DNA of 64,000 nt from Sipunculus nudus. Lineage: Eukaryota > Annelida > Sipuncula > Golfingiida > Sipunculidae. The notes beneath the pieces are model-generated. The model was not told where the DNA came from, made no database searches, and saw only the letters and a list, made by a program, of their open reading frames with translations. Within the stretch, counting starts at the first letter, position 1. The number at the start of each line of letters is the position of its first letter. A program made the translations under genes and the position numbers. Where the stretch lies: the NCBI GenBank assembly GCA_026874595.1, contig CM049307.1:80762643-80826642 (forward strand). The letters run 5' to 3'. Shown here piece after piece: positions 12,924-44,396 of this stretch.

Positions 12924-15548
12924 TTGAAAACAATCGTGTTGATGCTTTGTAGCTTTCATACACTAATGAACATGCTTGGCGCCATTGGGACCCTCATGGC
13001 AGGGTCTGGTCTCCAAGACGTTTTTGAAGAGGTTTATGGAGAGAATGCTGTGAAACATATAATGACGGGGAAGTCCGTTCAACGTGGTTTCAGGGGCCAT
13101 CTGTTAGTTAAGAAGTGCTTAAATGGGATATTGGTCACTGAATTGACGGACCAGTATGCAGATTTTTGCAGGGATTGTCACTGAATGTGATGAACTCTAC
13201 AGTTCGTTGTTAACAGGAGACACGACTGCTGAGTCTCTCGTCTCTGAAAGTGGAGGTGGACAGAATTCTCAAAGAGATAAAGAGTGGCCTTGCTGAACGG
13301 TCGCGGACAAGCAAACTTTTGCTTTCATACATGGGTATGATTAAAGCAGCAAGAATGCTTGTATATGCAGATAGAACAGGTTCATGGGCCACATATCTCT
13401 GGGCTTTAGGGCAATATCTACCTATTTTTGCAGCAGCAGGGCATAATAATTATCTGAAGTCAGTATATCTGTATCTGCTAGAGATGAAAGACCTTGAATC
13501 TAGACACCCAGAAGTGTTTAGAAAGTTCATGGAGGGATTCCATGTAATTCGAAGAACAGATCAATTTTGGGCTGGACTTGGAGCAGATCTTGTGATTGAG
13601 CAGACTTTGATGAGGTCACTGAAACTCTCTGGAGGTCTCACAAGAGGAAGCGGTGTAACTGAAGAGCAGCGTACCCTGTGGACAATGTCAGCACCCGTGT
13701 GTTCGGAATACAGTGCTGCTTTACAGGAATTGACTCATAATGTGTTTACTACAAGTGAGCAGCATAAAGAGGGGTCAGAGGCAAGGATAAACAGGGACCA
13801 GTCAGACTTGTCAAAGATCAAAGCCAAACTCGAGTAATCTGGCCAATGTTCACAGAACAGTACTTTGCGCAATATTGTAACAGGCTTAGTAGCTCATGAC
13901 TGATGATGTTGATGACTTTCAAAGCGCATGACAGAAAGTGATCGATAGGTTTGTGGGGCAACCAGTATTTACATATTCTTTTAGAAGAAAGGACAAGGCA
14001 AAAGCACGTGGTGACTCATCCGCTGTCAAAGTAGCACCAGACAAGTCCATAGGCCCTGCATTGCTGTTGCAGAGACTGATTGCGATTTCTAGGGCTGGAG
14101 ATGTGTTTTTGGAAAGTGCACTTGAATTTGAATTAAGTCCATTTCCGCCAGCTCTATTTGAGGCAAAGTATGTCCTCAGAAAGCCAGAAAAACCCCAACT
14201 GACCAGAGCTATTGAAGAACATGCGAAAGGGCAGCCTGATAAACCTGTAACAACTGAAATTCCTAAGACTGACAATTATGTTTTAGATGGGGGTTCTCTT
14301 ATTCATCGGGTCTCATGGACTAAAGGCAATACCTATGGTACCATCGCTGATTCTTATGTAGACTTCACCTTAAGAACTATGGCAAAGCTACTGTGGTGTT
14401 TGACGGATACAAAGATAATATACCGTCCATCAAGGATAGTTGCCATGAGAGGCGTCAACAAAAATCGCAACCATCAGTCAGTGTCACTCCAGAAACAAAA
14501 TTTATGGGGGAAACACAACTTTCTGGGAAGGGGAAGCAACAAACATGCACTGATAAATGTCATAAGTGCCAAACTGCGGGAAAAAGGCTGCGATGTTGTG
14601 AGCTGTGAGGGCGACGCTGGTCGGGAAATTGTTCAAGCTGCCATTGCAGCTTCTGTGTATGGGCCCACCACTCTAATTGGAGAGGACACAGATTTGTTGA
14701 TGCTTCTCCTGTGTTTCATGAATCCAGATAATAAGAGCTTGTTTTTTCGCTCTGACATGAAATCTGAGACACTATTCATGTGTACAACATTAACAAACTC
14801 AAAGTCTTGCTTGGGGAACCACTGTGTTCTCACTTGCTATTTGCTCACAGCTTTACAGGATGTGATAAGACTTCGCGGATATATGGTGTTGGGAAAAAGC
14901 CACTTTTCCAGAGGTTGGTTAAAGGTGAGAAAGATATAAAAATCATGTGCAGTTTGCTTTACCAACCCTAGTGAGACATGTGAAAAAATTGAACAGACTG
15001 GGCATAAAGCCATGATTTTGCTTTTTGGTGGAAAAGCATCCGATGAATTGGTTGGTTTGAGGCAACGTGTATCGAAAAAGGTTGTTTCTGTCACAAGTTT
15101 TGTGGCCCCAGAACCCCCCCCCCCCTCCCCCACTCCATCAGCCACTAAGTACCAGTCTCATAGATGTTACTACCAAATAATGACATGGCTCGGCAAAGAG
15201 AGTGATCTTGATGCTACACAGTGGGGTTGCCAATATGAAAATAGCCAATTCCGTCCCATTATGACTGCGAAATTTCCAGCGCCGGACAGCCTGCTGAAGG
15301 TTGTTCATTGCAATTGCACAACTGGATGTACCTCACGACGCTGCACCTGTCAGGTATATGGCTTACCGTGTACATCTGTGTGTGGGCAGTGTCAGACTTT
15401 GTCTTGTGAAAACCCGTTTAACCAGTCTTATCTTGTAGATTCTGACAAAGACCAAGACGAAAACGATGACTCTGAATCTGATGTATGTACATGGTACATG
15501 GAAATGTACAATGTAGCCTGCCTAGCCCCGTGCAATGACGTCACATGA
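12924..15548 (+). pseudogene. Frameshifted PIN/FEN1-like plus CXC-type multicopy protein
   Basis: This belongs, by recollection, to a large multicopy family of uncharacterised marine-animal proteins. Segments appear in changing frames: 12,924-13,184 (GAIGTLMAGSGL region), 13,250-13,837, 13,938 to about 14,390 (YVLDGGSLIHR), about 14,393-14,540 (VVFDGYKD), 14,549-14,779 (GPTTLIGEDTDLLMLLL), 14,780-14,971 (FAHSFTGCDKTSRIYG) and 15,012-15,548. VFDGY, EGDAG and EDTDLL line up with the three acidic motifs of PIN/FEN1-like nucleases. The second motif has Gly where this family, as I remember it, has Asp. The tail at about 15,300-15,415 is a Cys-rich CXC-like region (CNCTTGC to CGQC). At least five frame changes show it is dead. 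The N-terminal part of the family is missing. Confidence 0.75.
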
Positions 15549-15746
15549 AGTCAACTTGATTCAAGCCTGATGTAATTCTGTTGAAAGACCTGGTTGTGTA
15601 GTATTTCTTATATATTACTAACAAATTGCCCAAGTCAAATTGCTCTAGACGTAAAAGTAGTTGCTCATGACGTCGACATGGATTCATGATGACGTCATAC
15701 AGAACTTTTATTATGCTTATTTGGTTTTGGTATCATGTTTCTATCT

Positions 15747-15920
15747 GTTTGTAATACATTAATGGGGGTTAAAATGAAGCATTAAGGAGTTATAAACGAG
15801 TAAAATTCTGGTCGACGGCCATCTCCCGGGCTTCGAATTTGGGAGACTTTTTTCTGGAGATCTTTAAGACCAAATAAACAATATGAAATCATAAAACCTT
15901 TTGTTGCGATTTTTTTAGGT
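15747..15920 (-). repeat. Internal inverted repeat, right arm
   Basis: Reverse complement of 12,722-12,921 with indels. It lies just downstream of the CXC ORF, so the two arms bracket the ORF and could be the terminal repeats of a nested element or inner parts of one long terminal repeat. Confidence 0.8.
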
Positions 15921-16550
15921 AAAACCAGATATTGATCTGACTATAAGCTGAAAAGGGTGAAGAGCATGTTTATGGAGATAGCATAAGATTTCCATGGAAC
16001 TACAGAGGGAGTCCAGTTCTTTTCCAGGAGGTATATAGTTATCAAAGAGAGCATGGCTTCTGTGTAACATATATTGTTTGCTCATGCAGTGTTCTAAACC
16101 AGCCATTAGTCTTTGACAGATCCATGAGGAGAACACGTAAGGCTTTGTGGGTTATGCTGTCCAGCCGGTGACAGAGCCTGATGCAGCCCCTGTAGTAGCA
16201 TTTGAAATGATATAAATCATTTCTAGTTATTCTTCCGACTATTTGATGTATCTCATATCTTGATGAGGCTAACTATTAGATCTAAATACTCTGCAAGTTT
16301 TCTTTTCTTTGATGGATTTGAATTAAGGTTAGAATAGAGTATACAATTCTTGTGTTATCTTTTGACAATATTAAGGTTTGTAGTAATGGCTGTAATCATG
16401 ATTACTGTTTGAAGTTATCATAAAGTAATCGTAATCATAATCGATTACATGAACTTATTTTGGTAATCGTGATTGTAATCGTAACCGTTTGCATTCAAAG
16501 TAATCGTAATCGTAATCGATTACACATATCAAGTAATCGTCCCATATCTA

Positions 16551-16558
16551 GTATCCTC
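16551..16558 (+). repeat. Right 8-bp target-site duplication
   Basis: GTATCCTC, 7 of 8 identical to 11,698-11,705. It is repeated at 30,417-30,424 because it lies inside the tandem duplication. Confidence 0.65.
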
Positions 16559-16598
16559 ATCCTTAACCTCAGTGTCCGAAGATGTTTTTTAACCGGCA

Positions 16599-16678
16599 CT
16601 TTGTCACCTTTTTATACACATTAAACGTATAAATTGGTATAATTTTATACGTTTAATGTGTATGAAAAGGTGACAAAG
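16599..16678 (+). repeat. Hairpin: 35-bp inverted repeat with 10-nt loop (unit A)
   Basis: Left arm 16,599-16,633 begins CTTTGTCACC and right arm 16,644-16,678 ends GGTGACAAAG. The arms match at 34 of 35 positions, and the one mismatch would be a U-G wobble in a plus-strand RNA. The loop is TTGGTATAAT. It lies 40 bp past the right duplication of the hAT-like element and is followed by CGTCCGTCCGTCC. Confidence 0.9.
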
Positions 16679-16689
16679 TCTGTGCGTCC

Positions 16690-16972
16690 GTCCGTCCTTT
16701 CGTCGGTTATGCTCCCCAGGAGTCAGATGGATTTTCCCGAAACCCAGCCACATGCTTACGCTAAAGTGATCAATGGAAAATCTAGGGACTCTCTCGATTT
16801 GACCCGATCATGATATCAGCGGTCATGCCATCATAGGTTCATGATCTGTCACATTGATCATAACTGATAAAATGGAAATTCTTACAATAGTTGTGGTGAA
16901 AATATTTCCTTTTTTGCAACGGCAAGGCCCTATATAATTCCACGCGTGATGTAGCCCTCCATTATAAATATC

Positions 16973-17037
<65 letters not shown>

Positions 17038-18440
17038 GTTTAGGATAAATTAATACATTTAAACATCAATTGTTAGTAAACATTTGCAAGTTCATCATGT
17101 ATATTACAAAAACCCTCAAAAACTTAACATTTTGCGCTTAGCAAAATATTGCACAAGTTAACGGGTCTTCAAGAGACCCGTTAGCTTAGCGGAAATTGAC
17201 ATCTGGTGAAGTTGCAGTGGAAGCTGCATTGTAAAGTTTAAGGTCAGATATATAAGCATAAGTTTGGACAAGGCAGTCATAAGGGATGTAATGTGACTAC
17301 AAGATGTTATAATTCCCAATGACGAACCTCTTTTAGCGTGTATATCTAACCTTACCTTGAAAAGCCTCAAACAAACTGTTTCCATTTCATTTGATTTTTG
17401 GCGAGCGCTAATCACAACCTGTAGATGAAATAACCGAATTTGTACCTAACGAATTTGTTGTGCAAAGGCGATTTATACTCCTTCTTTTTTAATTGTGGAA
17501 TCCGGAAGTCTTAAAATTCCTGTTCGCCAAGGAAAAAGAGCATGCGCGTGGTTTCTGTAGATCACTTTGCATCAATGAAACTTGAATTTAACCATATTGA
17601 TGCAGTAAAATAGGAATCGTTTATTTTATTATTGTTTCATTATTTAAAGTTAATGTTGCTAATTAAAGAAACGTACATAAACAGGAAATTTTGTTTGAAT
17701 TTGTTAATTTACAAAAATCATAGTCGAACAGATAAATTTGAATATCATATGAGAATGTATGAAAATTAAAAGAAAGCATTAATAACCCTGTATTGAAATG
17801 TCATCGACTTTTTGTATTATAAAAGGTTGTTTCGGTGCTCCGAGTCAATTGTATTTTTTTACCTTGTTAAAGATTGGACTAAGACACTTGGTGTGGAAAA
17901 GATGATTCTGTTACAGAAAGATATTTCTGATAGATAACTAAGAAGTTGAATTTTGTCTACATATATCCCAAATACATATATTAAACCTTCCGTTTGGGAA
18001 ACAGCTGATATCCTTGAAGGTCAATGACGAAGTGACGCCTAGTGGCTGCACTTGCGGTCTCTCCTTAAATATTGGTTGGAGATAGTAAAAAAGTGTTTTT
18101 AGTGTATAAATTGATAGAGTAAGGTTGCAACAGTCAAGGATTATATAGGAGCTTAATTTTAGCCGAAAGAAGACTGAAGTGAACTCAGTTTTTCTCCAGT
18201 TGTATGCTCAGTAGAGGCCCTAGTACCCGGCACGACAAAACTGTGGCCAGCCACCAGTGACTTTCTGACCAGTTTTAGATGATTGGCCACTACATTTGAT
18301 CGGTCTTTGTATGTCCGACTAAGGACCCTTGGATTGTGTTCTAAAACACTAACAAAAAGAGGATTTACTGGTGTCACGATACGCATAAGGCACATTCACA
18401 AGGTAAACCACTGTTGCATGCAAACATAAACAAATCATCT
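16690..18440. other. Unit A: no gene recognised, one (AT)n tract
   Basis: Contains an (AT)n tract at about 16,975-17,032, one repeat unit shorter than its twin at 30,840-30,901. Open frames are short and without recognisable content. Confidence 0.5.
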
Positions 18441-18454
18441 GAAGTTGACTGGAA

Positions 18455-19945
18455 TAATCTTTTTAAAGTGGACATTTCACACTTCTATCGAAAATAGAAA
18501 TAACATTGTAGATAATAAAAGATTTGCACTGATGAAATCAGGGTCGATTTCAAAGAAGGAAACAAATATATGCTCTTTTATATTGGACAATAATATGCAT
18601 GTGTGTGCTCTCACTAAAACTTGGCTTAGAGAGGATGTGCCTGGTTAGATATCACTGAGCCAAATGGTTCCATATGCCTTCAGTTGTATCCATTATCCAA
18701 GGCCAGCAAACGGTGGTGGAGTATAACTGATATTCCACCAAAGACTACGTCTCAAAAGAGCATCTGAAAGGAGCACAGTTGGTAACTCCTTTGAGGCTCT
18801 TTACAGTTACATATCCAGTATATTTACTTTTCGCATCATGGTTGTATATTGACCACCGCCATCGAGGAAAAATAATTGAAAACCGTCTCAGTTTCGTAGT
18901 CCCTTGAATACTACTCCTCATTTTGTGGTAACATAGTCATTACGGGAGATTTTAACATTCATGTAGATAATAATAATGATAAATATGCTGAAGATTTCCT
19001 GTTTTTGAAACATTCTTTTGGGTACCGTAAACATGCGATTCAGATGACTCACAGGCGAGGACATACTTTATACTTGATTCAACCACGTGAATATGACATT
19101 TCAGTTATTCAGAATATTCATACATGGGATCCAGTCATTCAGATCACATGGAAGTCTGTGGGGCACTGCAACTTGCACAGCCTAATCAATGGGAGAGTTA
19201 TGTGAGATACCGAAAATTGCGATCACTTGACCACATTGCTTTCATGCAGGAATTAACTAAATCTTCTGTATGCGAAAAAAAAGTGACGATGCTGATTCTT
19301 ATAATGATGCTGTTGTTTTGTGTTACAATAATGTACTTTGTGAAATTCCTGACCAGGTATTACCTGAGAGAACACGGAAGATAGTGATTTGTGAGGAATC
19401 AAAGAGGATCGATGAACACTTAAGAGAGGCAAAGCAGAGGATAAGTCAAATGGAGCGGTTGTACAACAAAACGACGCTGGAAGCTTATAAACAGATATTT
19501 ATTGAACAAACGAAAGTGAAAAAGTGACTGATCACGATTTTTAAACAAAATTGGTATGGTGAAGTGATTGACAACGCCAGTCATGGTGGAACTCTTTCTA
19601 TAGTTGCTAATGAACTTTTAGGTCGTTCGAAGAAACATTTTTGTGTTACCTGATTATTCCTCAACTGAAGAAATTATGTCCAGATTTGGTGATTATTTTA
19701 TCAGAAAAATCAAACCAATTCAGGACGGTATAGAACACAGTCGAGAATTAGATGCAGAGGGTCTTATACCTCAGTGTGAGGTTTACTGGACTCAGTTCAC
19801 ACAGGCCGGTGTTCATAATGTTTGTTAACTCATCCGATCCTCCCCTAACATGTCCGACGGGCTTGACCCAGTTCCGACCGAGCTACCTCTCCCAAACCTA
19901 CGCCAAATACTCAGGAAAGTCAAAGCACCAGTGTTACAGTCTAAT
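18455..19945 (+). mobile_element. LINE (APE-type non-LTR retrotransposon) 5' fragment, unit A
   Basis: Broken frames show an endonuclease-like order. CALTKTWL lies near 18,610. Near 18,700 there is an RPANGGGV string, and near 18,850 VVY followed by PPPSRKN. ITGDFNIHVDN lies near 18,940 and RRGHTLYLI near 19,050. A linker-like LPDYSSTEEI string at 19,644 precedes FGDYFIRKIKPI, then a DPVP string near 19,866. These match the order in CR1/L2/Jockey-like LINEs. The reverse transcriptase is absent: the similarity stops in the linker, where the conserved TLR 3' flank begins. Stops and frameshifts make it dead. Confidence 0.7.
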
Positions 19946-20352
19946 AGGTTGTTGCTGTGCTCATAAACCAGCTTTCAAAAGTCACTAGGCAGGGATTTGT
20001 TAAATAACCTATCCTAGGAGCTCATTCTGTCTTCACTGTCTTCATTTTTTCTGTATTCGTCTCTACGATTCGTGAGTGACAGGGATAAAATAAAGGTTGC
20101 GAACGTTTCCCATAGGTTGCAAGATAGACATATAGTGGTTCTCGGTTTAACAGTGGTAGTTACAACAAATTTTGACTTTTGAATTATTCCAAGCTTCATG
20201 TACAGAAACAGATTCAACAAACATGTTTTTCTTGATCATACACAATATCTACCAGGTAATGCATCAACACCGATCACGAAATCACGTATATTACCATTAA
20301 ACAATATATAGGCATGTGAGAGTGGGCTTGTGTGATGAAATATTGAATATAA

Positions 20353-20354
<2 letters not shown>

Positions 20355-20401
<47 letters not shown>
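20355..20401. repeat. (AT)n microsatellite 3' of TLR gene 2
   Basis: Same position relative to the gene as the tract at 3,549-3,612. It is 4 bp longer than the twin tract in unit B. Confidence 0.95.
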
Positions 20402-20402
<1 letters not shown>

Positions 20403-20688
20403 TTACTTAAAATGGGTTGTGGACATGCTGAATTCTACTAGAAAGGCATGTATAAGATAAAAAAAAGTTCGGATTGTGTCATTACCTAATATATTTCATG
20501 ATTTCATTTATTTATTAATAAATTTCATTGGAGTGCCTTATATACACAACGTAATTTAGTAGGATTGTCACAGGGTCTCCAAATAATGCATTTGTTGGAA
20601 ATTTCTTAATGTTTCTTAATGTCCAATGGTATAATATGCGCCCCACAGGATCCTATCTGGTAAAATTCAAAATTCAAAGCTATTGCGT

Positions 20689-23109
20689 CTAGTCTGTCAG
20701 AAGAAGCATGTTTGTTTGGTCTGGATTGCACATGTAGGTCTGAAGAGGGGCCCCAAGGCTGGCTTTCAGTCTCATTTTAAAAACCGCAATCATCTGTAGT
20801 TTGGTAGGCCAGTCAAGGTAACTGACACTGCGAATCATTGCAGATAGTCCGGGTGGAAGCATTTTGCTGTTTTTCATACTGAGCATCTGAACGTATGGAT
20901 GAACAACTGCAACCATCCGACTATGGCGGGAGTTCAGTGAGTGAGCATGCGAAAGCTGGGCTTCTAATTCACACCATCCGGATTTGATAAAATGCTTACT
21001 CACACACACTATGGTATTTCGACTCTTTGATATAGCGTCTAAAATATTAGATGTGATAGGAAACCCTGGCCGGAAGTGACGATAATGTAAACACACACGG
21101 TAAGGCCTTGTTTTGTCTTCCTCCAGTGGTCTCACGATATACTCATCAACGAAGTCTTCGTCTTTACTTGAGTAGGAAACGAAGGCATCAAACATAAACT
21201 CATCGTTTTTCTGGGCTGCCTCTTGGTTGAGCGTTATAAGATACTTGACCATGGTTAAGTGATACTGAATTTGCCACTTGAAACGGCAAATCAAGTTCAA
21301 TATCGTTATCAGTAATAATACAATGGCAAAGAGAACAAAAGCAATGGTATCCTCAGTTCTCATTTCCATGCAATGCTTTTCAAGTCTATTGGTTTCGCTC
21401 AGGAGAACATGAGGCTTCCCATCCTCTCCAGTACAAGTCAACGGTCGAGTACTCGAGTGCAGTCCCGTGATGGTGAGCTTACTCCTGATAAGAAAGTATA
21501 TTTCTCTTAACGCTTCACAGGAGCACTCAATTGGATTGTCTAACAAGTTCAATTCTATCTGGCTTTTTGTATTCCTGCGTTTCTGAATTCCTTCCAGGCT
21601 ATCCAGACCAGTACGACTGATATATTGAAACTCATTATCACTCAGATCAATGTACTCAATAGAGTCCAACCATCGAAAATGTCGGTGTGTATCATTTATT
21701 TTATTTCCTTGTAATAATAGCCAACGCATTTTCTTCTGATAGCGGAATATTTGATCCGGCAAGTCATGTATATTTAAGTAAGTCAGTTCCAGGTAAATTA
21801 GATCAGCGTTTCTTGCAAATAGTTCATCAGATATTTTATGTTGAAAGACTTCAGGGGAGACACTGTTATTCATGAGCAACATTTGCAGGTTCGGCATTTT
21901 GTAAAAGAAACGATCGTCAATATGCCCGCACTGGATATCCCGCAGGTTGAGATATTTGAGACGGAACGTGCAGCAAAAAGTTCCATTTAGGTATTTCAGT
22001 CTAGTACCACCAACGTCAAGAAACTGTAGTCCATGTAACGTTAACCAGTACTTTTGACCATCGACGCCGAAAGGATGATACCCAAGCTGATCTAACACAA
22101 CAACACTCAAGTTGGGTAAGAATACTCCAATCACCACTGTATCTTGCACCCTGTTCGGTATAATAGGATTTGATATATTAGGATTGCCGGTAACAAACTT
22201 CCCCCAGTTGAACGTAGGATGTAGTCTAGGGGGTGGGAGAGTAGGGTTACAATGTTTTGCTATATATTGGCACCCTATGTCTATTCTAACCAAGTGTTTT
22301 AATGCGGGAATAAAAAATAATACTTCCCTGTCTCCTACTATCTTGTTATCCCGTAATGACAAATATCGCAGGTGCTTTAGATTTAATAGGAAACCAACTG
22401 TAACTCTGGCGATTTTGTTTCTTTCTAAGTATAAGTGGGTAACATTTGATAGGCATCGTGAGAAATCAGGTTCGACAGTAAGACTGAATCTTAATGTATG
22501 CTTAAGGGCACCATTCAAAGTAATGCGGGTGAGATTTTTTGATGCCCCACAAAATAAATTACCAATGTTGGTTATATCTATGTTACAATGATCTGCAATA
22601 ATTTCATTTAAGTTTGGCATTGGTTTAAATGCATGAGGCATAAACGTCGTCTGAATGTCTTTATTTTTCTGCCAAAACGACAACACCCTGAGCTTATTTA
22701 ACCCCAAGAAGGCGTCACTCTCTACCCGGCTTATCTCTATATGATTGATGAGCAACCGATTCAGGTTTTGATAGGAGATGAAGGAATTATTTTTCAGGAT
22801 GACAATATCTAGAGACAGGAGATTTAACACAGCTATTGGCCACCGCCCGGTGAGATGACTTAACTCGCTTGCAGTTGGTATCTTTAGCAACCCTTCACAT
22901 GTCACTTCAGCTTCAGGTTTGCCCAGTTTTGTTGCAAATTTGACATTACATGGAGACTTGTTGTCTGTTACAGTATGCTGGTGCGAAGGATATGTTAATG
23001 CAGGACTGACGACTGGTCTTATAAGTCCGACAGTGTGTCCTTTTCTACTGGTTTTGGCCATTACAGCCAGAAAACATGCGATCAGCATTGCCCTCATGAT
23101 ATGGATCAT
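20689..23109 (-). CDS. Toll-like receptor, gene 2, 806 aa
   Basis: Same architecture as TLR gene 1. A signal peptide covers about residues 1-19. LRRs run to about 524, with the Pro/Asn-rich insert after Cys280/Cys287. The LRRCT uses Cys529, 531, 559 and 580; a membrane segment lies at about 587-608 and a TIR domain at about 638-789. Box 1 is FDAFVSY, the BB loop RHFRPG, box 3 LDW. The open frame extends 13 codons further upstream, to 23,148, but those codons run through a clear splice acceptor (TTGTTCAATACAG, exon starting at 23,124). I therefore start at the second Met (23,109), which aligns with the start of gene 1. Against gene 1 the TIR differs at 16 of about 155 residues, while one 180-residue LRR stretch differs at about 50. 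The frame is intact. Confidence 0.95.
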   Translation of the reverse strand: MIHIMRAMLIACFLAVMAKTSRKGHTVGLIRPVVSPALTYPSHQHTVTDNKSPCNVKFATKLGKPEAEVTCEGLLKIPTASELSHLTGRWPIAVLNLLSLDIVILKNNSFISYQNLNRLLINHIEISRVESDAFLGLNKLRVLSFWQKNKDIQTTFMPHAFKPMPNLNEIIADHCNIDITNIGNLFCGASKNLTRITLNGALKHTLRFSLTVEPDFSRCLSNVTHLYLERNKIARVTVGFLLNLKHLRYLSLRDNKIVGDREVLFFIPALKHLVRIDIGCQYIAKHCNPTLPPPRLHPTFNWGKFVTGNPNISNPIIPNRVQDTVVIGVFLPNLSVVVLDQLGYHPFGVDGQKYWLTLHGLQFLDVGGTRLKYLNGTFCCTFRLKYLNLRDIQCGHIDDRFFYKMPNLQMLLMNNSVSPEVFQHKISDELFARNADLIYLELTYLNIHDLPDQIFRYQKKMRWLLLQGNKINDTHRHFRWLDSIEYIDLSDNEFQYISRTGLDSLEGIQKRRNTKSQIELNLLDNPIECSCEALREIYFLIRSKLTITGLHSSTRPLTCTGEDGKPHVLLSETNRLEKHCMEMRTEDTIAFVLFAIVLLLITILNLICRFKWQIQYHLTMVKYLITLNQEAAQKNDEFMFDAFVSYSSKDEDFVDEYIVRPLEEDKTRPYRVCLHYRHFRPGFPITSNILDAISKSRNTIVCVSKHFIKSGWCELEAQLSHAHSLNSRHSRMVAVVHPYVQMLSMKNSKMLPPGLSAMIRSVSYLDWPTKLQMIAVFKMRLKASLGAPLQTYMCNPDQTNMLLLTD

Positions 23110-23124
23110 TTTCTTGTCTGCTGT

Positions 23125-23805
23125 CTGTATTGAACAAGAATAAGACATTAATATCAGGAAACTAGTTTTTGTTATTCAAATTTGATAATTAAAAAAAGTA
23201 AACAATGATCGATTATCGATCGATCAGTCCAGGGAGCTTCGACATAATGTAAAAATATATAAACCACATGTTCACTCTTGTATCTTGGTCGATTTTAAGA
23301 TCACCATTCATATAAAAAAGTATATTAAGGTTATCATAAAAGTTCAAGGACACGCTCGGTTCTTCGAACGTTATCCACCACGGCTCACATTTCTGCTTTA
23401 GTGCTGGTTGCTACGTTATGTCCTGTTTTTCACGTGTTTTATCAACACAGAAAAATTTTATTTCTCTTGATAATATATCTTGACGACAAAAATACTTTTT
23501 CAGCAAATACACAAAAAGGTAATGAGATAAATAAATAATAATATATGCCAGTCACCCATAAAATCGATTAATCGACACACGACTTCACAAAATCTTCTTT
23601 TCATATATATATATATGTGTGTGTATATATATATACCTGATATACTTAATATAGCAATATTTATGTAAATTCAAGATCACCATTGTTGTTATCATCAGTT
23701 TTTTTCTTTAATTAGACCCCAGGAATGCGTACATTTTCTGTCAATATTGGCACATCCAGAAGAAAAGAAAGAATTAAAAGGTAAAAAACAGCAAAACAAA
23801 ATTAC
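23125..23805 (-). other. TLR gene 2 intron 1 (5'UTR intron)
   Basis: Donor GCAAG|GTAAT (exon ends at 23,806) and acceptor TTCAATACAG (exon resumes at 23,124), both on the minus strand. It is 681 bp long, AT-rich, with a short AT/GT tract near 23,605-23,635. Confidence 0.65.
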
Positions 23806-23877
23806 CTTGCCTCCGTTGCAGCACAGAAGTATTCTTTGTCTCTCCGCTTACTTAAATCTCAAACTGCAGTATCTGTG

Positions 23878-23880
<3 letters not shown>
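23806..23880 (-). other. TLR gene 2 noncoding first exon (5'UTR), at least its 3' part
   Basis: Conserved with 7,179 upward. The 5' limit is uncertain because a 58-bp (AT)n tract (23,880-23,937) sits where the exon start or core promoter should be, and the conserved upstream sequence resumes beyond it at about 23,950. Confidence 0.45.

Positions 23881-23937
<57 letters not shown>
23880..23937. repeat. (AT)n microsatellite at the TLR gene 2 first exon
   Basis: About 58 bp of AT, 60 bp in unit B. TLR gene 1 has no such tract at the aligned place. Confidence 0.9.
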
Positions 23938-23939
<2 letters not shown>

Positions 23940-24104
23940 CTATAGAGGACCGGTCGTTATATTATTTACGATCACGTGCCAATAGACCAGCAGTTGATGA
24001 CTTGTTGATAATGAATGAATACGAATCCGTAGTTATACAAAATGTCGGTTAGTTTCAGAGAAAAACTGGAGATGTAGATGCGGGTAATTTTAAGATAAAA
24101 TCTT

Positions 24105-25580: not shown

Positions 25581-25640
<60 letters not shown>

Positions 25641-25840
25641 ATTACATATTGCTACTGTTATTTTTTTTAATTATGTTATCACAAGAGGGTATGTATATTT
25701 CGTTCTATAACCCATCATTTTATCTCCACATGACTCAATTGTAAGTGAAACTTTTTCTCGATGTGCTTATATACCGGTTATATTATCATATTATTATTAA
25801 ACATAAACCACTATTTCATAATGTTTGTTCAACATCAGGA
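24105..25840. other. Unit A: diverged noncoding stretch
   Basis: The first base that differs steadily from unit B is at 24,105. No gene was recognised. A stretch near 24,760-24,850 has GATACG/CGATAC-like sub-repeats that suggest an old transposon. A mixed (AT)n-(GT)n tract lies at about 25,582-25,641. Confidence 0.5.
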
Positions 25841-27998: not shown

Positions 27999-27999
27999 G

Positions 28000-28000
<1 letters not shown>

Positions 28001-30416: not shown

Positions 30417-30464
30417 GTATCCTCATCCTTAACCTCAGTGTCCGAAGATGTTTTTTAACCGGCA

Positions 30465-30838: not shown

Positions 30839-30905
<67 letters not shown>

Positions 30906-33813: not shown

Positions 33814-34220
33814 AGGTTGTTGCTGTGCTCATAAACCAGCTTTCAAAAGTCACTAGGCAGGGATTTGTTAAATAACCTATCCTAGGAGCTCATTCTGTCT
33901 TCACTGTCTTCATTTTTTCTGTATTCGTCTCTACGATTCGTGAGTGACAGGGATAAAATAAAGGTTGCGAACGTTTCCCATAGGTTGCAAGATAGACATA
34001 TAGTGGTTCTCGGTTTAACAGTGGTAGTTACAACAAATTTTGACTTTTGAATTATTCCAAGCTTCATGTACAGAAACAGATTCAACAAACATGTTTTTCT
34101 TGATCATACACAATATCTACCAGGTAATGCATCAACACCGATCACGAAATCACGTATATTACCATTAAACAATATATAGGCATGTGAGAGTGGGCTTGTG
34201 TGATGAAATATTGAATATAA

Positions 34221-34222
<2 letters not shown>

Positions 34223-34265
<43 letters not shown>
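34223..34265. repeat. (AT)n microsatellite 3' of TLR gene 3
   Basis: 4 bp shorter than the twin in unit A. Confidence 0.95.
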
Positions 34266-34266
<1 letters not shown>

Positions 34267-34552
34267 TTACTTAAAATGGGTTGTGGACATGCTGAATTCT
34301 ACTAGAAAGGCATGTATAAGATAAAAAAAAGTTCGGATTGTGTCATTACCTAATATATTTCATGATTTCATTTATTTATTAATAAATTTCATTGGAGTGC
34401 CTTATATACACAACGTAATTTAGTAGGATTGTCACAGGGTCTCCAAATAATGCATTTGTTGGAAATTTCTTAATGTTTCTTAATGTCCAATGGTATAATA
34501 TGCGCCCCACAGGATCCTATCTGGTAAAATTCAAAATTCAAAGCTATTGCGT

Positions 34553-36973
34553 CTAGTCTGTCAGAAGAAGCATGTTTGTTTGGTCTGGATTGCACATGTA
34601 GGTCTGAAGAGGGGCCCCAAGGCTGGCTTTCAGTCTCATTTTAAAAACCGCAATCATCTGTAGTTTGGTAGGCCAGTCAAGGTAACTGACACTGCGAATC
34701 ATTGCAGATAGTCCGGGTGGAAGCATTTTGCTGTTTTTCATACTGAGCATCTGAACGTATGGATGAACAACTGCAACCATCCGACTATGGCGGGAGTTCA
34801 GTGAGTGAGCATGCGAAAGCTGGGCTTCTAATTCACACCATCCGGATTTGATAAAATGCTTACTCACACACACTATGGTATTTCGACTCTTTGATATAGC
34901 GTCTAAAATATTAGATGTGATAGGAAACCCTGGCCGGAAGTGACGATAATGTAAACACACACGGTAAGGCCTTGTTTTGTCTTCCTCCAGTGGTCTCACG
35001 ATATACTCATCAACGAAGTCTTCGTCTTTACTTGAGTAGGAAACGAAGGCATCAAACATAAACTCATCGTTTTTCTGGGCTGCCTCTTGGTTGAGCGTTA
35101 TAAGATACTTGACCATGGTTAAGTGATACTGAATTTGCCACTTGAAACGGCAAATCAAGTTCAATATCGTTATCAGTAATAATACAATGGCAAAGAGAAC
35201 AAAAGCAATGGTATCCTCAGTTCTCATTTCCATGCAATGCTTTTCAAGTCTATTGGTTTCGCTCAGGAGAACATGAGGCTTCCCATCCTCTCCAGTACAA
35301 GTCAACGGTCGAGTACTCGAGTGCAGTCCCGTGATGGTGAGCTTACTCCTGATAAGAAAGTATATTTCTCTTAACGCTTCACAGGAGCACTCAATTGGAT
35401 TGTCTAACAAGTTCAATTCTATCTGGCTTTTTGTATTCCTGCGTTTCTGAATTCCTTCCAGGCTATCCAGACCAGTACGACTGATATATTGAAACTCATT
35501 ATCACTCAGATCAATGTACTCAATAGAGTCCAACCATCGAAAATGTCGGTGTGTATCATTTATTTTATTTCCTTGTAATAATAGCCAACGCATTTTCTTC
35601 TGATAGCGGAATATTTGATCCGGCAAGTCATGTATATTTAAGTAAGTCAGTTCCAGGTAAATTAGATCAGCGTTTCTTGCAAATAGTTCATCAGATATTT
35701 TATGTTGAAAGACTTCAGGGGAGACACTGTTATTCATGAGCAACATTTGCAGGTTCGGCATTTTGTAAAAGAAACGATCGTCAATATGCCCGCACTGGAT
35801 ATCCCGCAGGTTGAGATATTTGAGACGGAACGTGCAGCAAAAAGTTCCATTTAGGTATTTCAGTCTAGTACCACCAACGTCAAGAAACTGTAGTCCATGT
35901 AACGTTAACCAGTACTTTTGACCATCGACGCCGAAAGGATGATACCCAAGCTGATCTAACACAACAACACTCAAGTTGGGTAAGAATACTCCAATCACCA
36001 CTGTATCTTGCACCCTGTTCGGTATAATAGGATTTGATATATTAGGATTGCCGGTAACAAACTTCCCCCAGTTGAACGTAGGATGTAGTCTAGGGGGTGG
36101 GAGAGTAGGGTTACAATGTTTTGCTATATATTGGCACCCTATGTCTATTCTAACCAAGTGTTTTAATGCGGGAATAAAAAATAATACTTCCCTGTCTCCT
36201 ACTATCTTGTTATCCCGTAATGACAAATATCGCAGGTGCTTTAGATTTAATAGGAAACCAACTGTAACTCTGGCGATTTTGTTTCTTTCTAAGTATAAGT
36301 GGGTAACATTTGATAGGCATCGTGAGAAATCAGGTTCGACAGTAAGACTGAATCTTAATGTATGCTTAAGGGCACCATTCAAAGTAATGCGGGTGAGATT
36401 TTTTGATGCCCCACAAAATAAATTACCAATGTTGGTTATATCTATGTTACAATGATCTGCAATAATTTCATTTAAGTTTGGCATTGGTTTAAATGCATGA
36501 GGCATAAACGTCGTCTGAATGTCTTTATTTTTCTGCCAAAACGACAACACCCTGAGCTTATTTAACCCCAAGAAGGCGTCACTCTCTACCCGGCTTATCT
36601 CTATATGATTGATGAGCAACCGATTCAGGTTTTGATAGGAGATGAAGGAATTATTTTTCAGGATGACAATATCTAGAGACAGGAGATTTAACACAGCTAT
36701 TGGCCACCGCCCGGTGAGATGACTTAACTCGCTTGCAGTTGGTATCTTTAGCAACCCTTCACATGTCACTTCAGCTTCAGGTTTGCCCAGTTTTGTTGCA
36801 AATTTGACATTACATGGAGACTTGTTGTCTGTTACAGTATGCTGGTGCGAAGGATATGTTAATGCAGGACTGACGACTGGTCTTATAAGTCCGACAGTGT
36901 GTCCTTTTCTACTGGTTTTGGCCATTACAGCCAGAAAACATGCGATCAGCATTGCCCTCATGATATGGATCAT
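34553..36973 (-). CDS. Toll-like receptor, gene 3, 806 aa (identical to gene 2)
   Basis: The translation shows no difference from TLR gene 2 over all 806 residues, and the antisense frames match too, so synonymous changes are also absent as far as I can see. Architecture: signal peptide, LRRs with a mid-ectodomain insert, one LRRCT, membrane segment, TIR with FDAFVSY, RHFRPG and LDW. The start is placed at 36,973 because the 13 upstream in-frame codons cross the splice acceptor (exon starts at 36,988). The noncoding first exon, intron and flanks are copied as well, so the gene should be expressible. It is either a true second copy that doubles dosage, or an assembly duplicate of gene 2. Confidence 0.95.
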   Translation of the reverse strand: MIHIMRAMLIACFLAVMAKTSRKGHTVGLIRPVVSPALTYPSHQHTVTDNKSPCNVKFATKLGKPEAEVTCEGLLKIPTASELSHLTGRWPIAVLNLLSLDIVILKNNSFISYQNLNRLLINHIEISRVESDAFLGLNKLRVLSFWQKNKDIQTTFMPHAFKPMPNLNEIIADHCNIDITNIGNLFCGASKNLTRITLNGALKHTLRFSLTVEPDFSRCLSNVTHLYLERNKIARVTVGFLLNLKHLRYLSLRDNKIVGDREVLFFIPALKHLVRIDIGCQYIAKHCNPTLPPPRLHPTFNWGKFVTGNPNISNPIIPNRVQDTVVIGVFLPNLSVVVLDQLGYHPFGVDGQKYWLTLHGLQFLDVGGTRLKYLNGTFCCTFRLKYLNLRDIQCGHIDDRFFYKMPNLQMLLMNNSVSPEVFQHKISDELFARNADLIYLELTYLNIHDLPDQIFRYQKKMRWLLLQGNKINDTHRHFRWLDSIEYIDLSDNEFQYISRTGLDSLEGIQKRRNTKSQIELNLLDNPIECSCEALREIYFLIRSKLTITGLHSSTRPLTCTGEDGKPHVLLSETNRLEKHCMEMRTEDTIAFVLFAIVLLLITILNLICRFKWQIQYHLTMVKYLITLNQEAAQKNDEFMFDAFVSYSSKDEDFVDEYIVRPLEEDKTRPYRVCLHYRHFRPGFPITSNILDAISKSRNTIVCVSKHFIKSGWCELEAQLSHAHSLNSRHSRMVAVVHPYVQMLSMKNSKMLPPGLSAMIRSVSYLDWPTKLQMIAVFKMRLKASLGAPLQTYMCNPDQTNMLLLTD

Positions 36974-36988
36974 TTTCTTGTCTGCTGT

Positions 36989-37669
36989 CTGTATTGAACA
37001 AGAATAAGACATTAATATCAGGAAACTAGTTTTTGTTATTCAAATTTGATAATTAAAAAAAGTAAACAATGATCGATTATCGATCGATCAGTCCAGGGAG
37101 CTTCGACATAATGTAAAAATATATAAACCACATGTTCACTCTTGTATCTTGGTCGATTTTAAGATCACCATTCATATAAAAAAGTATATTAAGGTTATCA
37201 TAAAAGTTCAAGGACACGCTCGGTTCTTCGAACGTTATCCACCACGGCTCACATTTCTGCTTTAGTGCTGGTTGCTACGTTATGTCCTGTTTTTCACGTG
37301 TTTTATCAACACAGAAAAATTTTATTTCTCTTGATAATATATCTTGACGACAAAAATACTTTTTCAGCAAATACACAAAAAGGTAATGAGATAAATAAAT
37401 AATAATATATGCCAGTCACCCATAAAATCGATTAATCGACACACGACTTCACAAAATCTTCTTTTCATATATATATATATGTGTGTGTATATATATATAC
37501 CTGATATACTTAATATAGCAATATTTATGTAAATTCAAGATCACCATTGTTGTTATCATCAGTTTTTTTCTTTAATTAGACCCCAGGAATGCGTACATTT
37601 TCTGTCAATATTGGCACATCCAGAAGAAAAGAAAGAATTAAAAGGTAAAAAACAGCAAAACAAAATTAC
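36989..37669 (-). other. TLR gene 3 intron 1 (5'UTR intron)
   Basis: Same donor (exon ends at 37,670) and acceptor (exon resumes at 36,988) as gene 2. It is 681 bp long. Confidence 0.65.
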
Positions 37670-37741
37670 CTTGCCTCCGTTGCAGCACAGAAGTATTCTT
37701 TGTCTCTCCGCTTACTTAAATCTCAAACTGCAGTATCTGTG

Positions 37742-37744
<3 letters not shown>
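37670..37744 (-). other. TLR gene 3 noncoding first exon (5'UTR), at least its 3' part
   Basis: Copy of 23,806-23,880. An (AT)n tract at 37,744-37,803 follows on its upstream side. Confidence 0.45.

Positions 37745-37803
<59 letters not shown>
37744..37803. repeat. (AT)n microsatellite at the TLR gene 3 first exon
   Basis: About 60 bp, one repeat unit longer than in unit A. Confidence 0.9.
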
Positions 37804-37805
<2 letters not shown>

Positions 37806-37968
37806 CTATAGAGGACCGGTCGTTATATTATTTACGATCACGTGCCAATAGACCAGCAGTTGATGACTTGTTGATAATGAATGAATACGAATCCGTAGTT
37901 ATACAAAATGTCGGTTAGTTTCAGAGAAAAACTGGAGATGTAGATGCGGGTAATTTTAAGATAAAATC

Positions 37969-39435
37969 TTTCTTGTTAAATCAGTTGATAACATCGGTCG
38001 CTGATCTACCCACACCCTGAACTCATGACTTACACCACCAAAAATATATAACGAGAGGGTAGTTGGCAGAGCGTACATATAACTTTAGCAAGTCCAACAG
38101 CTAACAAACTTCTATACTATAAATATAATAAATAACAAATTAGTGTTTAAATGTTGTCAAAGTAATACAGAGGAGAAAGGATTAACTATTGAGTTTTATT
38201 CTTTGCGTATATTGTGTCATTATCATATTTACCTATTATTAAATGCGGGTTCACTATAAGATACTTTGATCAGATAGAGCAAAAGATGAACCCACGTTAG
38301 TATATAATTTTTAACAGTATTCTACTACATAAATTACAAAATAGGATAATAAATTTCACTTCAGGCCAGGGTGTGTGTATTGCATGAAGCCATTGACAAA
38401 TACAACAAACGCATGTAGTATGTCCAGAATAAATGTGGATTCACTTACATACAACAAAACTTAAAATCTGCAAAACCCTTTAAAATGAGGGTTCGTAAAT
38501 GGAGTGCCCGTAAGGAATTAAACCCATACTGATTAAATAAAAACAAATTTTCAGTTTTTCATTTAGCAACCCAGGGTTGGCCCCCTGGAAAATGTATCCA
38601 TTTGGGCTGTATCAATACACCGATATACGGATACGAATAGATACGCAACGTCGATACGGTTACCGATGCGCTTTACATACTGTGTCGGGCGTATCGAGGT
38701 TAACAATGAATGCTAATAAAAATTGATACAAGACTACTTAACCGGAACTACTTATAAATCTGTTCCTCCTTGTATTTGTTATTTTAGCTGTTAAGACTTA
38801 AACGAAACATATGTTTTGCCATATTATCGACTGGATAAGAAATATATATAAGCATATCAGGGTTCCGATGACAGGTCGGCGAGTGTGAGCGATATAAGGA
38901 GAATATTACTGGCATGAGCCTTTCTAAGGGGCCAATCCACCGGAGTTTGTGGCAGAAGCCTCCTGATCCGCCCGCCGCTTACGAAAATGAGAGAGTATAA
39001 ACCCCACCCTGAAAATCAAAATTTTCCTAAATGTCATTTTCCAGCACATGATACAGTATATTTATTTGTGTGAAGAATTCTAAGCTCAGTTTTCAACACC
39101 TTTTTATTTATGTTTTAAACTTTTATAGGCAAACACTCATGATTATTCGATTCATTAAGGCAACTGAAACAAACGATTTCCTAATCTTTTTTATTATGAG
39201 ATGCCAAGTTGAAAGAATATTGATTCAAATATGAAATATTAGAAATTGGAAATGGAAATCCCGAAATAGTTATATATTTGTTCAAAAGTAGGCGTCTTAT
39301 TCCCCTTAAAAATGAGGGTGGAGAATAATATTTTGTCCAATCATACTTAATCCCAATCCCTAAAAGTGTGGGGGACAGGTCCACTCCTCTTGACACGAGG
39401 CCTATGGTTTCGCTGAAGTGATGAACTCGATACCC

Positions 39436-39467
<32 letters not shown>

Positions 39468-39650
39468 ATTACATATTGCTACTGTTATTTTTTTGTTTAT
39501 GTTATCACAAGAGGGTATGTATATTTCGTTCTATAACCCATCATTTTATCTCTACTTGACTCAATTGTAAGCGAAACTTTTTCTCGATGTGCTTATATAC
39601 CGCTTATATTATCATATTATTATTAAACATAAACCACTATTTCATAATGT
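37969..39650. other. Unit B: diverged noncoding stretch
   Basis: Twin of 24,105-25,840 with frequent substitutions and indels. The microsatellite near 39,435-39,468 is mostly (GT)n here but mostly (AT)n in unit A. No gene was recognised. Confidence 0.5.
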
Positions 39651-39656
39651 ATGTTC

Positions 39657-39765
39657 AACATCAGGAGGTAATTGTTCGGGGCTAATAGCCCGGGGGTAAT
39701 AGTTTTGGGTGTTAGTTGTCCGGGGGGGTAATTGGGGGGGGGGGCGAAATTGTCCGGGGGGTATA
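39657..39765 (+). repeat. G-rich minisatellite, GGGGGTAATTGTCC-like units (unit B)
   Basis: Twin of 25,841-25,945 with slightly longer G runs. Confidence 0.75.
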
Positions 39766-40389
39766 TGTCTTAAAACCAAATGCAGCATCCATTTGCAAAC
39801 ACGGCATTCTTCTCTCGAGAAAAAAAATCTGCCAGAAGCGCTCAGAAGATTTGAATATCCAATGTTAAACTGAAACTTTAGCAGCAGACGAAAATGTGGC
39901 ACCAGCTTGGTCGTGATGATTCAATTAATTGTGGTTTCGTCATTTCATTATCACTAGACAAAGACAATTAACATAAAACGATTGATAATGGGAACCAGTC
40001 ATCTTTATCTTTCCATCATTACACATAATTTATTAACCAATTCCCAAATGTAGGAAGTATCTCGCAGACTTTTGCAAGAGCATAGATTACTTTCCAATGG
40101 TAAACTTTAACGTTGGACCTACCCTCTGGTTTATTTCTTCAGCTCTTTGACTGTATGGTGTGGCTGTGGGCAAAAATAATGAGATACACACGTACAGCCG
40201 TATATGTGTGAGATGTCCTGTTTTGCTGGCCTTGCTTACCAATATCACATATGAACCAGTCCCGGATTTCCGACCAGTAGTATCTTCGTCATTCCAGACC
40301 GCAGCACATGGTCCCGGGTGGAGCTAATAGAAAACCGGTGGCGCCGTCTGTTGGCGCATCAGTATAAATCAACACAACATCGTGTGTAT

Positions 40390-41819
40390 CTGGGTTGGGT
40401 CCTATTAAACAGGTTCTATTACAGTTACTCTTACTTCTTAATCCACCTATTACTTTTACTATTTCTTTTACAACATTTGTTCATCTATTACTATTGCCAT
40501 TACTTGGCTTCCATTAGTATTACTATTACTATTCCTTTACTTACAAATAGTGATACAAGCATATGCAGACCTTGCCCCCTACATTACCCCAGTACGTGAT
40601 ACTTTAATATGTTCGTATATGTAAACTGTGACTTTTTAAATTTTGTCCTAAATTAAAATGAAATTCAATAGTTTTAAATCTTTCAGTATAAATGAGCTTT
40701 CTTTTGCAATCAATGCGCTTTATTCAGCTAAGTGCAGCATTATTTTCAGCCAGTTCATGATCAGTACAACATAAACCAAATTTCGGTAGGTCCATATTCA
40801 CCACGGTTAATGACACTATCTTTAACATGTAATCATTCATGTCACACAATGTTCAACAAAAATTTAAATAAAATAAACTTCATGTTAAGCCAGTTTTAAA
40901 AGAAAAAGAGTAAGGTTTGAATAATCATGATAGACAAAAATATTGAAATAATGTTTGGGGCAATTTAATATGATTAAATATTATCAGTACCAGTTCAACA
41001 CTACATAAATCCAGTAATATATATATGTTATCTTTTCATTATAGAATATACAATGTGCATGTAGCCCATCTTGCTTGTAGCATTCAAATTGAACCTATTC
41101 ATGTTCATCAAAACACAGAAGTCTGTGAATTTTCTTGTCTACATCAAATTATTACATCTCGCCAGGTGAGTCCATTTCGATTTTTCTTGAGCAGGTGTTT
41201 ATTGAACATGAAAAAAAAATAGATTTTCAAATACGATCAGGAAGCCATTGTACATAGACTGCAATACTGGTTAGTACAAACAGGGCCTCATTCACTGTTT
41301 GTGGCACCACTATTTATTATAGTAATAAACTTATCAAAGGTTTTGAATCAGACTGTCTACCTCTGAAGTACTCAAACATCAGCAACACTGCAGCAGCACT
41401 GTCTTGCTTTAACTGACAGTTATTTGCTCCACATTTGTGAAAACTGACCAAGTACTAATGCAGCGTATACTCACCAACCTTAGTTAATGGATCTGTAAAC
41501 AAATCCAGGGTTTGATCTAATTGGGTATCACCTCAAACCAATGCCCGATGCCCCGTGTCCACTGGACCATGACAGCATTTAGCATCAACTAATCACACTA
41601 CAGCTTTAGCCTTTTCCTGTGATTCAGTATAATCATCCTACCACGTTTTGTTCATGTGTTATAACATTTAAAGTAATAGTTATTATTCTATTATTTAGGG
41701 TCCTATTACTTTTACTAATACAGATTAAATATTTTTTGTCTTTTACTTTTACTGTTACCCTGAAAACTTGTAATTTTCTACAACCATTATTATAACATAT
41801 AAGTAATACCCCATCCCTA
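40390..41819 (+). mobile_element. Short hAT-like element, unit B
   Basis: Twin of 26,575-27,998 with the same ends, diverged by substitutions and small indels. Confidence 0.5.
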
Positions 41820-41820
41820 G

Positions 41821-41822
<2 letters not shown>

Positions 41823-41871
<49 letters not shown>
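41823..41871. repeat. (AT)n microsatellite (unit B)
   Basis: Follows the short hAT-like element, as in unit A. Confidence 0.9.
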
Positions 41872-41873
<2 letters not shown>

Positions 41874-42957
41874 AGGTCTGTCCCGTTGTTTTTATAGACG
41901 CCTTTCTAGGCACTCACGCGTCATAACGTCTTTCTGCAGTGACGTTATCCGTGGCGGTCACGTTATACGTCGTAACCTTTTCGGCCAGCTCTGCACCCGT
42001 CTGTCAAAAACAACCCTGTGTTTCTGTTCAGGGTATTAAAATTAATTATATGTTTTTTTGTGAAATAATGGGGGCTGGCTGGCGGCTATTGCTTTTAAGT
42101 TTTTCTCTACCATGAAAATGGCGAAAAACTCACTTACTGGCACATGCAGAATTGACAACAAATGGTTAAAACATATATAACCATTTTTTTCTACCATGAA
42201 AGTAGCGTAAAGTATCGTTATATCTCATGCACTGGCACATGAAGAATTGACAACCAATAATTAAAACATAAGACAACAAACGTTGTATACATTGAATTAG
42301 TCAACAGTTTGAAAGGATCCTCGAAATAAGTGATATTTGTAATTCTTCTACGTGTATTATTGACAGGCAAATCATATTAAATAGGAATACATGTGTCAAA
42401 ATCTCAAGATGAATTATGCAACATGCGGGCCCGGCCGCCGGTTATTACATGGGGGATTCCCCTTCGAAATGCATGAAAGTCACGCGTGCTTACACCAGAT
42501 CCGAGATCGTTTAATAAAGAAAAAATAGCAGTTTCCTTAAATATTACATTATCTTTGTTTATATTTTTTTGCCTAAAAGAAGATCACAACAGATCGGTAT
42601 CGCGATAGAAATTATAGAATGAAATCGTTTTTGCAATGTGAAAATAGATGTATGTTTCCCCTCCCTATTCGCCTCACATCCCCTAATTTTAGGAATAAAT
42701 AATGACTACTTCAAAAGTCACAGCATTCACAGATAATTTTTATTCCGGTTAATTTGACTTGAAGATTAAGGTCAAGGTCACAAGTGTTCGAACACCTCTG
42801 AGATATTGGTAGAAACAATTAAATTAAAGAAGATATAAATCCATCGGGGGTCAGTGAAAATCACTGGCCCTAACAGGAAAATAAGTTAACCTCGAAATTT
42901 AAATATATATATTTTTTTCAATCTAAGTTAAAAGCACGGTTTGAACAACATATGTTA
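41872..42957. other. Unit B: distal noncoding end
   Basis: Twin of 28,045-29,146. The first copy of the CTACCATGAAA tandem block has lost about 20 bp. No gene was recognised. Confidence 0.55.
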
Positions 42958-44396
42958 AACTAGATATTTCTGGGCACCTCAGGTAACATGTGGTATCCAC
43001 AGACATTTAACCCCCCCCCCCCCCCCCCTCTTTAAGAATAGGCCCCCAATCCTTAACTGCATATACTGACACTCGGCAAGCGATTATGGTTTCTTCCATC
43101 TATCATCTTGAAAAAAAAAACAAAATTTTCAACAAATATGGGCAAATACGGTGAATCAGAGCATTAATTTAGTTTACGGAAACTGAAAGGTAGGTGGCGC
43201 CACCTGTCTGGTTTATGAGAAAATTTTCCAAGATGAATTGACATAGCAAATTTAAGACCAATACCTTGAACCACTCGGAGATATGAGCAATTTACAACCA
43301 TAACACATGTACAGATGGACGCCACGGCAAAACGATTGCAGCTGGCGCCACCAGTCCTGAGTACAAGATGGAGGAGTCCAAGATCTATGGATATGCATAA
43401 TTTCAGGCCAATAAGGCAAATCATTCCTGAGAAAAGAGCATTAAAAAATTTACAGAAACCGGAAGGTAGGTGGCGCCACCTGTCTTGTTTACGAGAAAAC
43501 TTTCCAAGATGGATGGACATGCTAAATTTTAGACCAATATCTTTAACCATTCCGGAGATAGAAGCAATTTTCACCAAAAGCACATGTACAGATGGGCGCC
43601 ACGCCAAAACGACTGCGGATGGCGCCACCAGTCTTGAGTACAAAATGGAGGAGTCCAAGATCTATGGATATGCACAATTTCTGGTCAATTTGTCCATTAG
43701 TTTTAGACTAAAGTGCACACAGTACTGTCAAGTGGCAATGATGAGGTATTAAAAAGCGTGAAAACAAGAAAAGGACAGAAGGTGGCGCCACCTGTGTTCC
43801 GTAGTAGACAAAGCTATGCACAATCTTCGGTCAATTTGATTTTTGGACCAATCCATGCATCTCTTATTTTGAGATATTTGGGATTTTGTGTGATTTTCAT
43901 CATATATGGCAATATTCAAGGGCAAGGCCACTCTCATAGGTAAAGTCATGACCCCAATTTAAATATACATCATCCCATAATCCATGTCTATGTATGTGCA
44001 TAATATGGAAGAAATCTGTACATTATATTTACTTATATTGCTCACAGTACTGTTAAGTGGCAATGATGGTGGTATTAACTGGCACAAATACAAGAAAAGG
44101 ATAACAGGTGGCGCCACCAGTTTCTGGTACATGACAACACTATCCAAGATCTTCGGCTAAGTTGATCTTTGGATCAATCCATGCAGGAATTCTTGGTATA
44201 TTTAAGAATTTGTGTGTTTTTACCAAACATGGACCTATTCAACGTCAAGGTCACTCTCCTGGTAAAAGTCATGACCTCATTTTAAATAGGCTTCGTCCTC
44301 TCACCCATATCTATGCACAAATACGGTAAAGATCCGTAAAATATTTCTTGAGTTATCGCGTCCAAACGGAATCTCTGCGGCGGCGGCAGAGAAATT
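42958..44396 (+). mobile_element. Repeat element A, copy 1 (AACTAGATATTTCT start, CTGCGGCGGCGG end)
   Basis: The first 150 bp (AACTAGATATTTCTGGGCAC, a poly-C run, TTAAGAATAGGCCCCCA, CATATACTGACACT, TTTCTTCCATCTATCA) match 53,652-53,790. The body holds units with GGTGGCGCCACC and CAAGTGGCAATGATG, and the 3' part ends in a CTGCGGCGGCGGCAGAG block near 44,376-44,392, as at about 55,667-55,690. It is non-coding. Long open frames at 43,164-43,752 read through tandem units and are not genes. The class is unknown. Confidence 0.6.

Follow-up and report, generated by a model that had tools for sequence, protein, structure and literature searches.

Invertebrates have tandemly expanded Toll-like receptor (TLR) clusters, and the locus described here, in a 64-kb stretch of the Sipunculus nudus genome (contig C2, positions 80,762,643-80,826,642; hereafter the window), is like them in carrying receptors with leucine-rich repeats (LRR) and a TIR domain in tandem. 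Compared with such clusters, the receptor itself shows nothing unusual. What concerns us is the tandem unit in which it lies, whose two adjoining copies, A and B, are nearly identical over 8.8 kb and clearly diverged over the next 5 kb.

Two described systems come close to this arrangement. Crossover within duplicated blocks has been modelled, and the whole-region crossover setting of that study resembles our locus in having two near-identical blocks, crossovers allowed inside them and an ancestry that changes along a copy (Hartasanchez et al. 2014, PMC4132178). As set out there, however, the system is a simulation with a single-copy block between the duplicates, whereas here the copies adjoin, and we have one chromosome on which a crossover is inferred from one step. 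The false heterotype duplications described by Ko et al. (2022, PMC9516828) share with the present locus adjacent gene-bearing copies and a near identity that steps to allele-like divergence. In that account, false copies are most often, but not always, separated by an assembly gap; the copies described here have no gap between them.

Copies A and B lie head-to-tail and adjoin directly, their borders having been located, by comparison of the window with itself, at the places first noted (Table 1). Global alignment of the two copies gave 132 substitutions and 23 gaps over 13,791 aligned sites. In the near-identical tract, the 8,783 aligned sites hold 2 substitutions (17,337 C>T and 17,464 A>G), or 0.023%, and three (TA)n length changes—exactly the differences counted there by the initial annotation of this DNA. 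These gaps, at 16,974, 20,356 and 23,879, are each 2 or 4 bp long, and all three sit in the tract's three longest (AT)n runs, of 46-58 bp. The diverged tract, for which frequent differences had been claimed, shows 130 substitutions over its 5,008 aligned sites (2.6%), along with 20 gaps, a substitution rate ~114-fold that of its neighbour; seven of the 130 fall in an AT-rich, misalignable stretch at 25,560-25,640, without which 123 are left. The dozen or more changes noted in its first ~330 bp are there as well (12 substitutions and a 1-bp gap), but the larger indel is 12 bp rather than 14.

Between the two tracts, the best single changepoint falls after 24,104 (log-likelihood gain 123; 1.92 log-unit range 24,030-24,104), ~957 bp upstream of the TLR start codon in A. 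Under the expectation of uniform substitution, finding at most 2 of the 132 substitutions left of the break has P = 2e-54, in agreement with the earlier statement that one duplication with a uniform clock is insufficient. The unit-to-unit alignment that the initial annotation had proposed as a check thus gives uneven divergence with one step, at 24,104/24,105, and the sharp two-level mosaic across the tandem unit is confirmed. Within the diverged tract, the substitutions are overdispersed, with a variance-to-mean ratio of 1.70 in 100-bp bins (P 0.0012 versus uniform scatter), 1.71 in 200-bp bins (P 0.014) and 2.25 in 400-bp bins (P 0.011); the stretch 27,180-27,825, for instance, holds a single substitution, at 27,503.

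Table 1. Coordinates of the tandem unit, its tracts and the associated features in the window.
Feature	Position	Strand	Length or product	Remarks	Basis
Dispersed DNA element	12688..15943	+		nested in another dispersed repeat; ends approximate	match limits
Tandem unit copy A	15318..29183		13,866 bp		self-BLAST and alignment
Tandem unit copy B	29184..42995		13,812 bp		self-BLAST and alignment
Near-identical tract of A	15318..24104			counterpart in B, 29,184-37,970	alignment
Diverged tract of A	24105..29183			counterpart in B, 37,971-42,995	alignment
Single sharp changepoint	24104..24105				changepoint fit
Duplication junction	29183..29184			blunt, 0 bp microhomology, no Ns	
TLR gene copy A	20689..23148	-	819 aa	LRR and TIR, one open frame	
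TLR gene copy B	34553..37012	-		coding sequence identical to copy A	
Older TLR paralogue	3887..6304	-	805 aa	75% protein identity to A/B	

The borders of the unit provide a way to tell the original arrangement from the derived one. The left border, 15,317/15,318, falls inside a dispersed element (~12.69-15.94 kb) whose end sequences are related and inverted. Among 81 matches listed from the best 40 candidates scored, at least 15 other element matches cross the position of this border by at least 250 bp on each side (three of them belong to one tandem array and are not independent); two further matches cross it by just 28 bp, and the copy at C13:17.855 Mb is interrupted there (query 2,519 to 2,627). 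The two parts of the host repeat that flank the element, one on the left and outside the unit (~11.7-12.69 kb), the other on the right and within the unit (15.94-16.5 kb), are contiguous at C3:15.094, C11:13.998 and C14:39.302 Mb, as judged from coordinates compared between two genome searches. Because the element is continuous elsewhere and the parts of its host repeat are adjacent at three other places, the left border represents the original state. With the element cut at 29,183/29,184, it follows that the latter is the new join. This junction shows no microhomology, insert or N, the bases before and after the borders disagree, and the right border lies 15 bases ahead of an 18-C run; no N occurs anywhere in the window. 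Adjacent head-to-tail copies, one derived junction and an ancestral left border are together what a real recent tandem duplication should display. A repeat-mediated origin of the junction was rejected: the three borders have no shared bases, and within 500 bp the outer borders offer only short, low-complexity or weak matches, the best of which is C-rich, 23 bp long and ~200 bp off on one side.

Searches for further copies covered the whole assembly (1.43 Gb, 153 contigs). No third near-identical copy was found of 15,318-20,000 among the matches listed (best 40 of 567 candidates) or of 24,105-29,183 (best 40 of 2,827 candidates); only the best candidates were scored, so absence is unproven, but a 96%-identical copy should rank high. 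Beyond A and B, the matches listed for the first query were dispersed repeats of at most 91% identity over ~350 bases or 83% over 1.4 kb, together with short pieces. For the second they were dispersed repeats of at most 78% over at least 500 bases and shorter, mostly simple-repeat pieces, and none of these listed matches qualified as an ectopic source of the diverged 5 kb.

The reading that we favour, with a probability of about one half, is a recent tandem duplication followed by a crossover, within copy B, with a ~2.6% different single-copy chromosome. On one haplotype, 13.8 kb bearing the TLR gene would have been duplicated by an event of the blunt end-joining type, and the duplicated chromosome would then have crossed over with the other chromosome within copy B, at the equivalent of 24,104/24,105. 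In the product, A and B's left 8.8 kb would stem from the duplicating haplotype, and the right 5 kb of B, presumably along with the right flank, from the other. We infer that the 2.6% represents divergence between alleles, that the step was produced by a crossover and that the locus is correctly assembled. A crossover in B is favoured because the identical tract begins exactly where the unit does on the left and ends at a single break, and the overdispersed substitutions of the diverged tract fit alleles of mixed ancestry. Further weight comes from the fact that a crossover is expected on the time scale of two substitutions and that other young tandem duplications are present in the assembly.

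The first of these two points rests on a neutral, panmictic simulation in which r/mu was assumed and time was set by the 2 substitutions in 8,783 sites. At r/mu of 0.1, 0.3, 1 and 3, the expected number of crossovers in copy B since the duplication was 0.24, 0.71, 2.4 and 7.1, respectively. A one-step mosaic in either copy arose in 30, 43, 23 and 4% of runs, and the type observed here, a crossover in B only that breaks 50-80% of the way along the unit, in 4.4, 5.7, 2.6 and 0.4%. Two random haplotypes, by comparison, gave at most 2 differences in 8,783 sites and at least 100 in the next 5,008 in 0-0.055% of neutral runs (20,000 at each of eight settings, with a fixed break). As the models were scored on unlike events—the crossover model does not demand at least 100 differences in the right part, and it accepts any break at 50-80% of the unit—the crossover model's advantage over the two-allele model is perhaps ten- to a hundredfold rather than an exact ratio.

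Other young tandem arrays served as controls; they were met through TLR or element matches and are not a random sample. At C9:23.32 Mb (to 23.40 Mb) lies a five-unit TLR array with 99.0-100% identity between aligned unit blocks, while a block farther along matches the units at 88-90%. Three units of 9,790 bp are found at C9:36.15 Mb, and C2:2.29 Mb has two of 4.68 kb. A segment of C11 (20.3-21.3 Mb) holds one 5-kb piece four times, its further copies lying at a distance of 160 kb (99% identity), at 536 kb (98%) and in inverted orientation (91%); TIR matches recur at the offsets of the first three (20,354,569; 20,515,142; 20,890,922). More than two copies cannot be merely two alleles of a diploid, and the five- and three-unit arrays therefore support real duplications in this genome. 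Six comparisons in three arrays gave average rates of 0.03-0.3%, with no side of any best split above 1.4%, and P values for unevenness of 0.007, 0.002, 0.03, 0.10, 0.44 and 0.96; the four five-unit-array comparisons among them share units and are not independent. These figures exclude the comparison between units 2 and 3 at C9:36.15 Mb, which gave 2 substitutions. Also excluded were mismatches clustered together next to microsatellite gaps, in all four comparisons of the five-unit array, and, at C2:2.29 Mb, one mismatch of an adjacent pair. Patchiness between young tandem copies is thus not unique to the present locus.

Several points weigh against a duplication followed by a crossover. Taking 2.6% as an allelic distance is an assumption, and the one-step mosaic falls to 4% of runs at r/mu 3. 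A step to the 2-3% level was seen at one of the four loci compared base by base, the present one; none of the three other young arrays makes it. Finally, a hom/het-like step has also been described around false duplications (Ko et al. 2022, PMC9516828).

This last resemblance speaks for a retained haplotig, in which A and B would be two alleles of one locus put end to end by the assembler, the 8.8 kb being nearly homozygous in this animal and the 5 kb heterozygous. We consider this unlikely, albeit the most probable of the rival readings. The window is free of N, and the junction is blunt, with no shared sequence. Overlap assembly should not by itself create a blunt junction without shared sequence. 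The assembly gap that typically marks a false heterotype duplication is absent (0 N in the window), but gap filling is possible. A random pair of alleles would give the pattern at a fixed break only at the 0-0.055% frequency of the neutral runs, a figure to be read with the proviso that assembly errors are not random draws. In addition, the left flank (8,300-12,700) had no second copy among the matches listed (39 of 5,082 scored), save for a dispersed repeat that covers its final kilobase and for short simple-repeat pieces.

Less probable again is an older duplication whose copies had reached 2.6% divergence throughout before recent conversion, over a tract of at least 8.8 kb, made their TLR-bearing left parts alike. 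Gene conversion is known to act between duplicated copies (Hartasanchez et al. 2014, PMC4132178), the whole TLR gene lies inside the homogenised part, and two of the six control comparisons are patchy at P <0.01 (0.007 and 0.002), with one more at 0.03. The tract would, however, be unusually long: with tract lengths taken as geometric and mean lengths as assumptions, a tract of 8.8 kb has P 1.5e-4 for a mean of 1 kb, 0.012 for 2 kb and 0.17 for 5 kb. Nor need a conversion tract stop at the edge of the unit, which the homogenised tract does exactly: it has diverged homologous sequence on its right side only, its left end being the unit edge.

Unequal exchange between two haplotypes, which would have made the duplication itself with A from one and B from the other and the step reflecting their allelic ancestry, has the appeal that a single event would suffice and would yield the same anatomy. 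It is nevertheless improbable, as it needs haplotypes that are near-identical over 8.8 kb beside a 2.6% region, the configuration found in 0-0.055% of neutral runs with a fixed break, and as the outer borders have no homology at the break, the 23-bp C-rich match within 500 bp being the best available. We give similarly little credence to selection, or a biased long-tract process, keeping the TLR gene and its proximal upstream sequence identical while the distal upstream 5 kb diverges; were it true, the animal's two receptors would be identical but their distal control regions would differ. The idea that unequal crossover rearranged an older array, which then shrank to two copies, was set aside by reasoning, since it requires additional events and the left end would be expected to be diverged. 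The initial annotation had listed conversion, a haplotype recombinant and a retained haplotig; that list does contain the likely answers, which the evidence ranks rather than decides between, with the recombinant fitting best.

Regarding the genes themselves, each of the window's three TLR proteins scores above cut-off for Pfam LRR_8, TIR and TIR_2, and the combination of LRR and TIR in one protein predicts them to be Toll-like receptors. Between the older paralogue and A, dN is 0.14 and dS 0.41 (Nei-Gojobori), which indicates overall constraint. The coding sequences of A and B are identical and therefore permit no statement on selection since the duplication. Of the four-fold degenerate sites, 60 of 162 differ between the older TLR and A in the ectodomain part (A residues 14-617) but 11 of 69 in the part that comprises membrane and TIR regions (residues 618-817). 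The lower difference in the latter would be explained by conversion affecting the TIR parts of the two genes, as well as by other causes. For the tandem copies, conversion from the older paralogue into A or B is unneeded, both substitutions of the near-identical tract falling outside the gene. Across the assembly, at least 150 TIR matches lie above the family cut-off (best 150 of 299 candidates scored).

The surroundings of the unit are rich in repeats. The region 11706-16549 consists of nested elements, a repeat being split by the element inserted at ~12,688-15,943. Where query position 123 adjoins 124, longer copies of the inserted element have additional sequence, amounting to ~2.5 kb in C3:47.88 Mb, and the copy in the window therefore looks internally deleted. 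The two open reading frames of this element that were tested, 13,938-14,939 and 15,012-15,548, had no Pfam match; the second is cysteine-rich. The diverged tract of A contains an old dispersed repeat at ~26,570-28,040. To the right of the unit, tandem repeats with units of 277 and 336 bp occupy 43158-43689 and 47057-48718, and the palindrome GGTGGCGCCACC is common to both consensus units. Two oppositely oriented arrays, whose 15-bp units are similar and C- or G-rich, lie at 59057-59228 and 59639-59849, with ~400 bp between them.

The most likely explanation of the locus is thus an ordinary one, namely a young tandem duplication that has recombined with another haplotype. Even so, it illustrates that an average identity taken across a whole unit (~99%) can mask two quite different ages. 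Its exact coordinates also allow the possibility of a false gene gain to be checked against sequencing reads. Gene presence-absence variation features in a report on a mussel (PMC7653742). If real, the duplication in S. nudus would have roughly one-hundredth the age of the allelic variation with which it has already recombined, and the locus would offer a snapshot of immune-receptor copy number combining with haplotype diversity.

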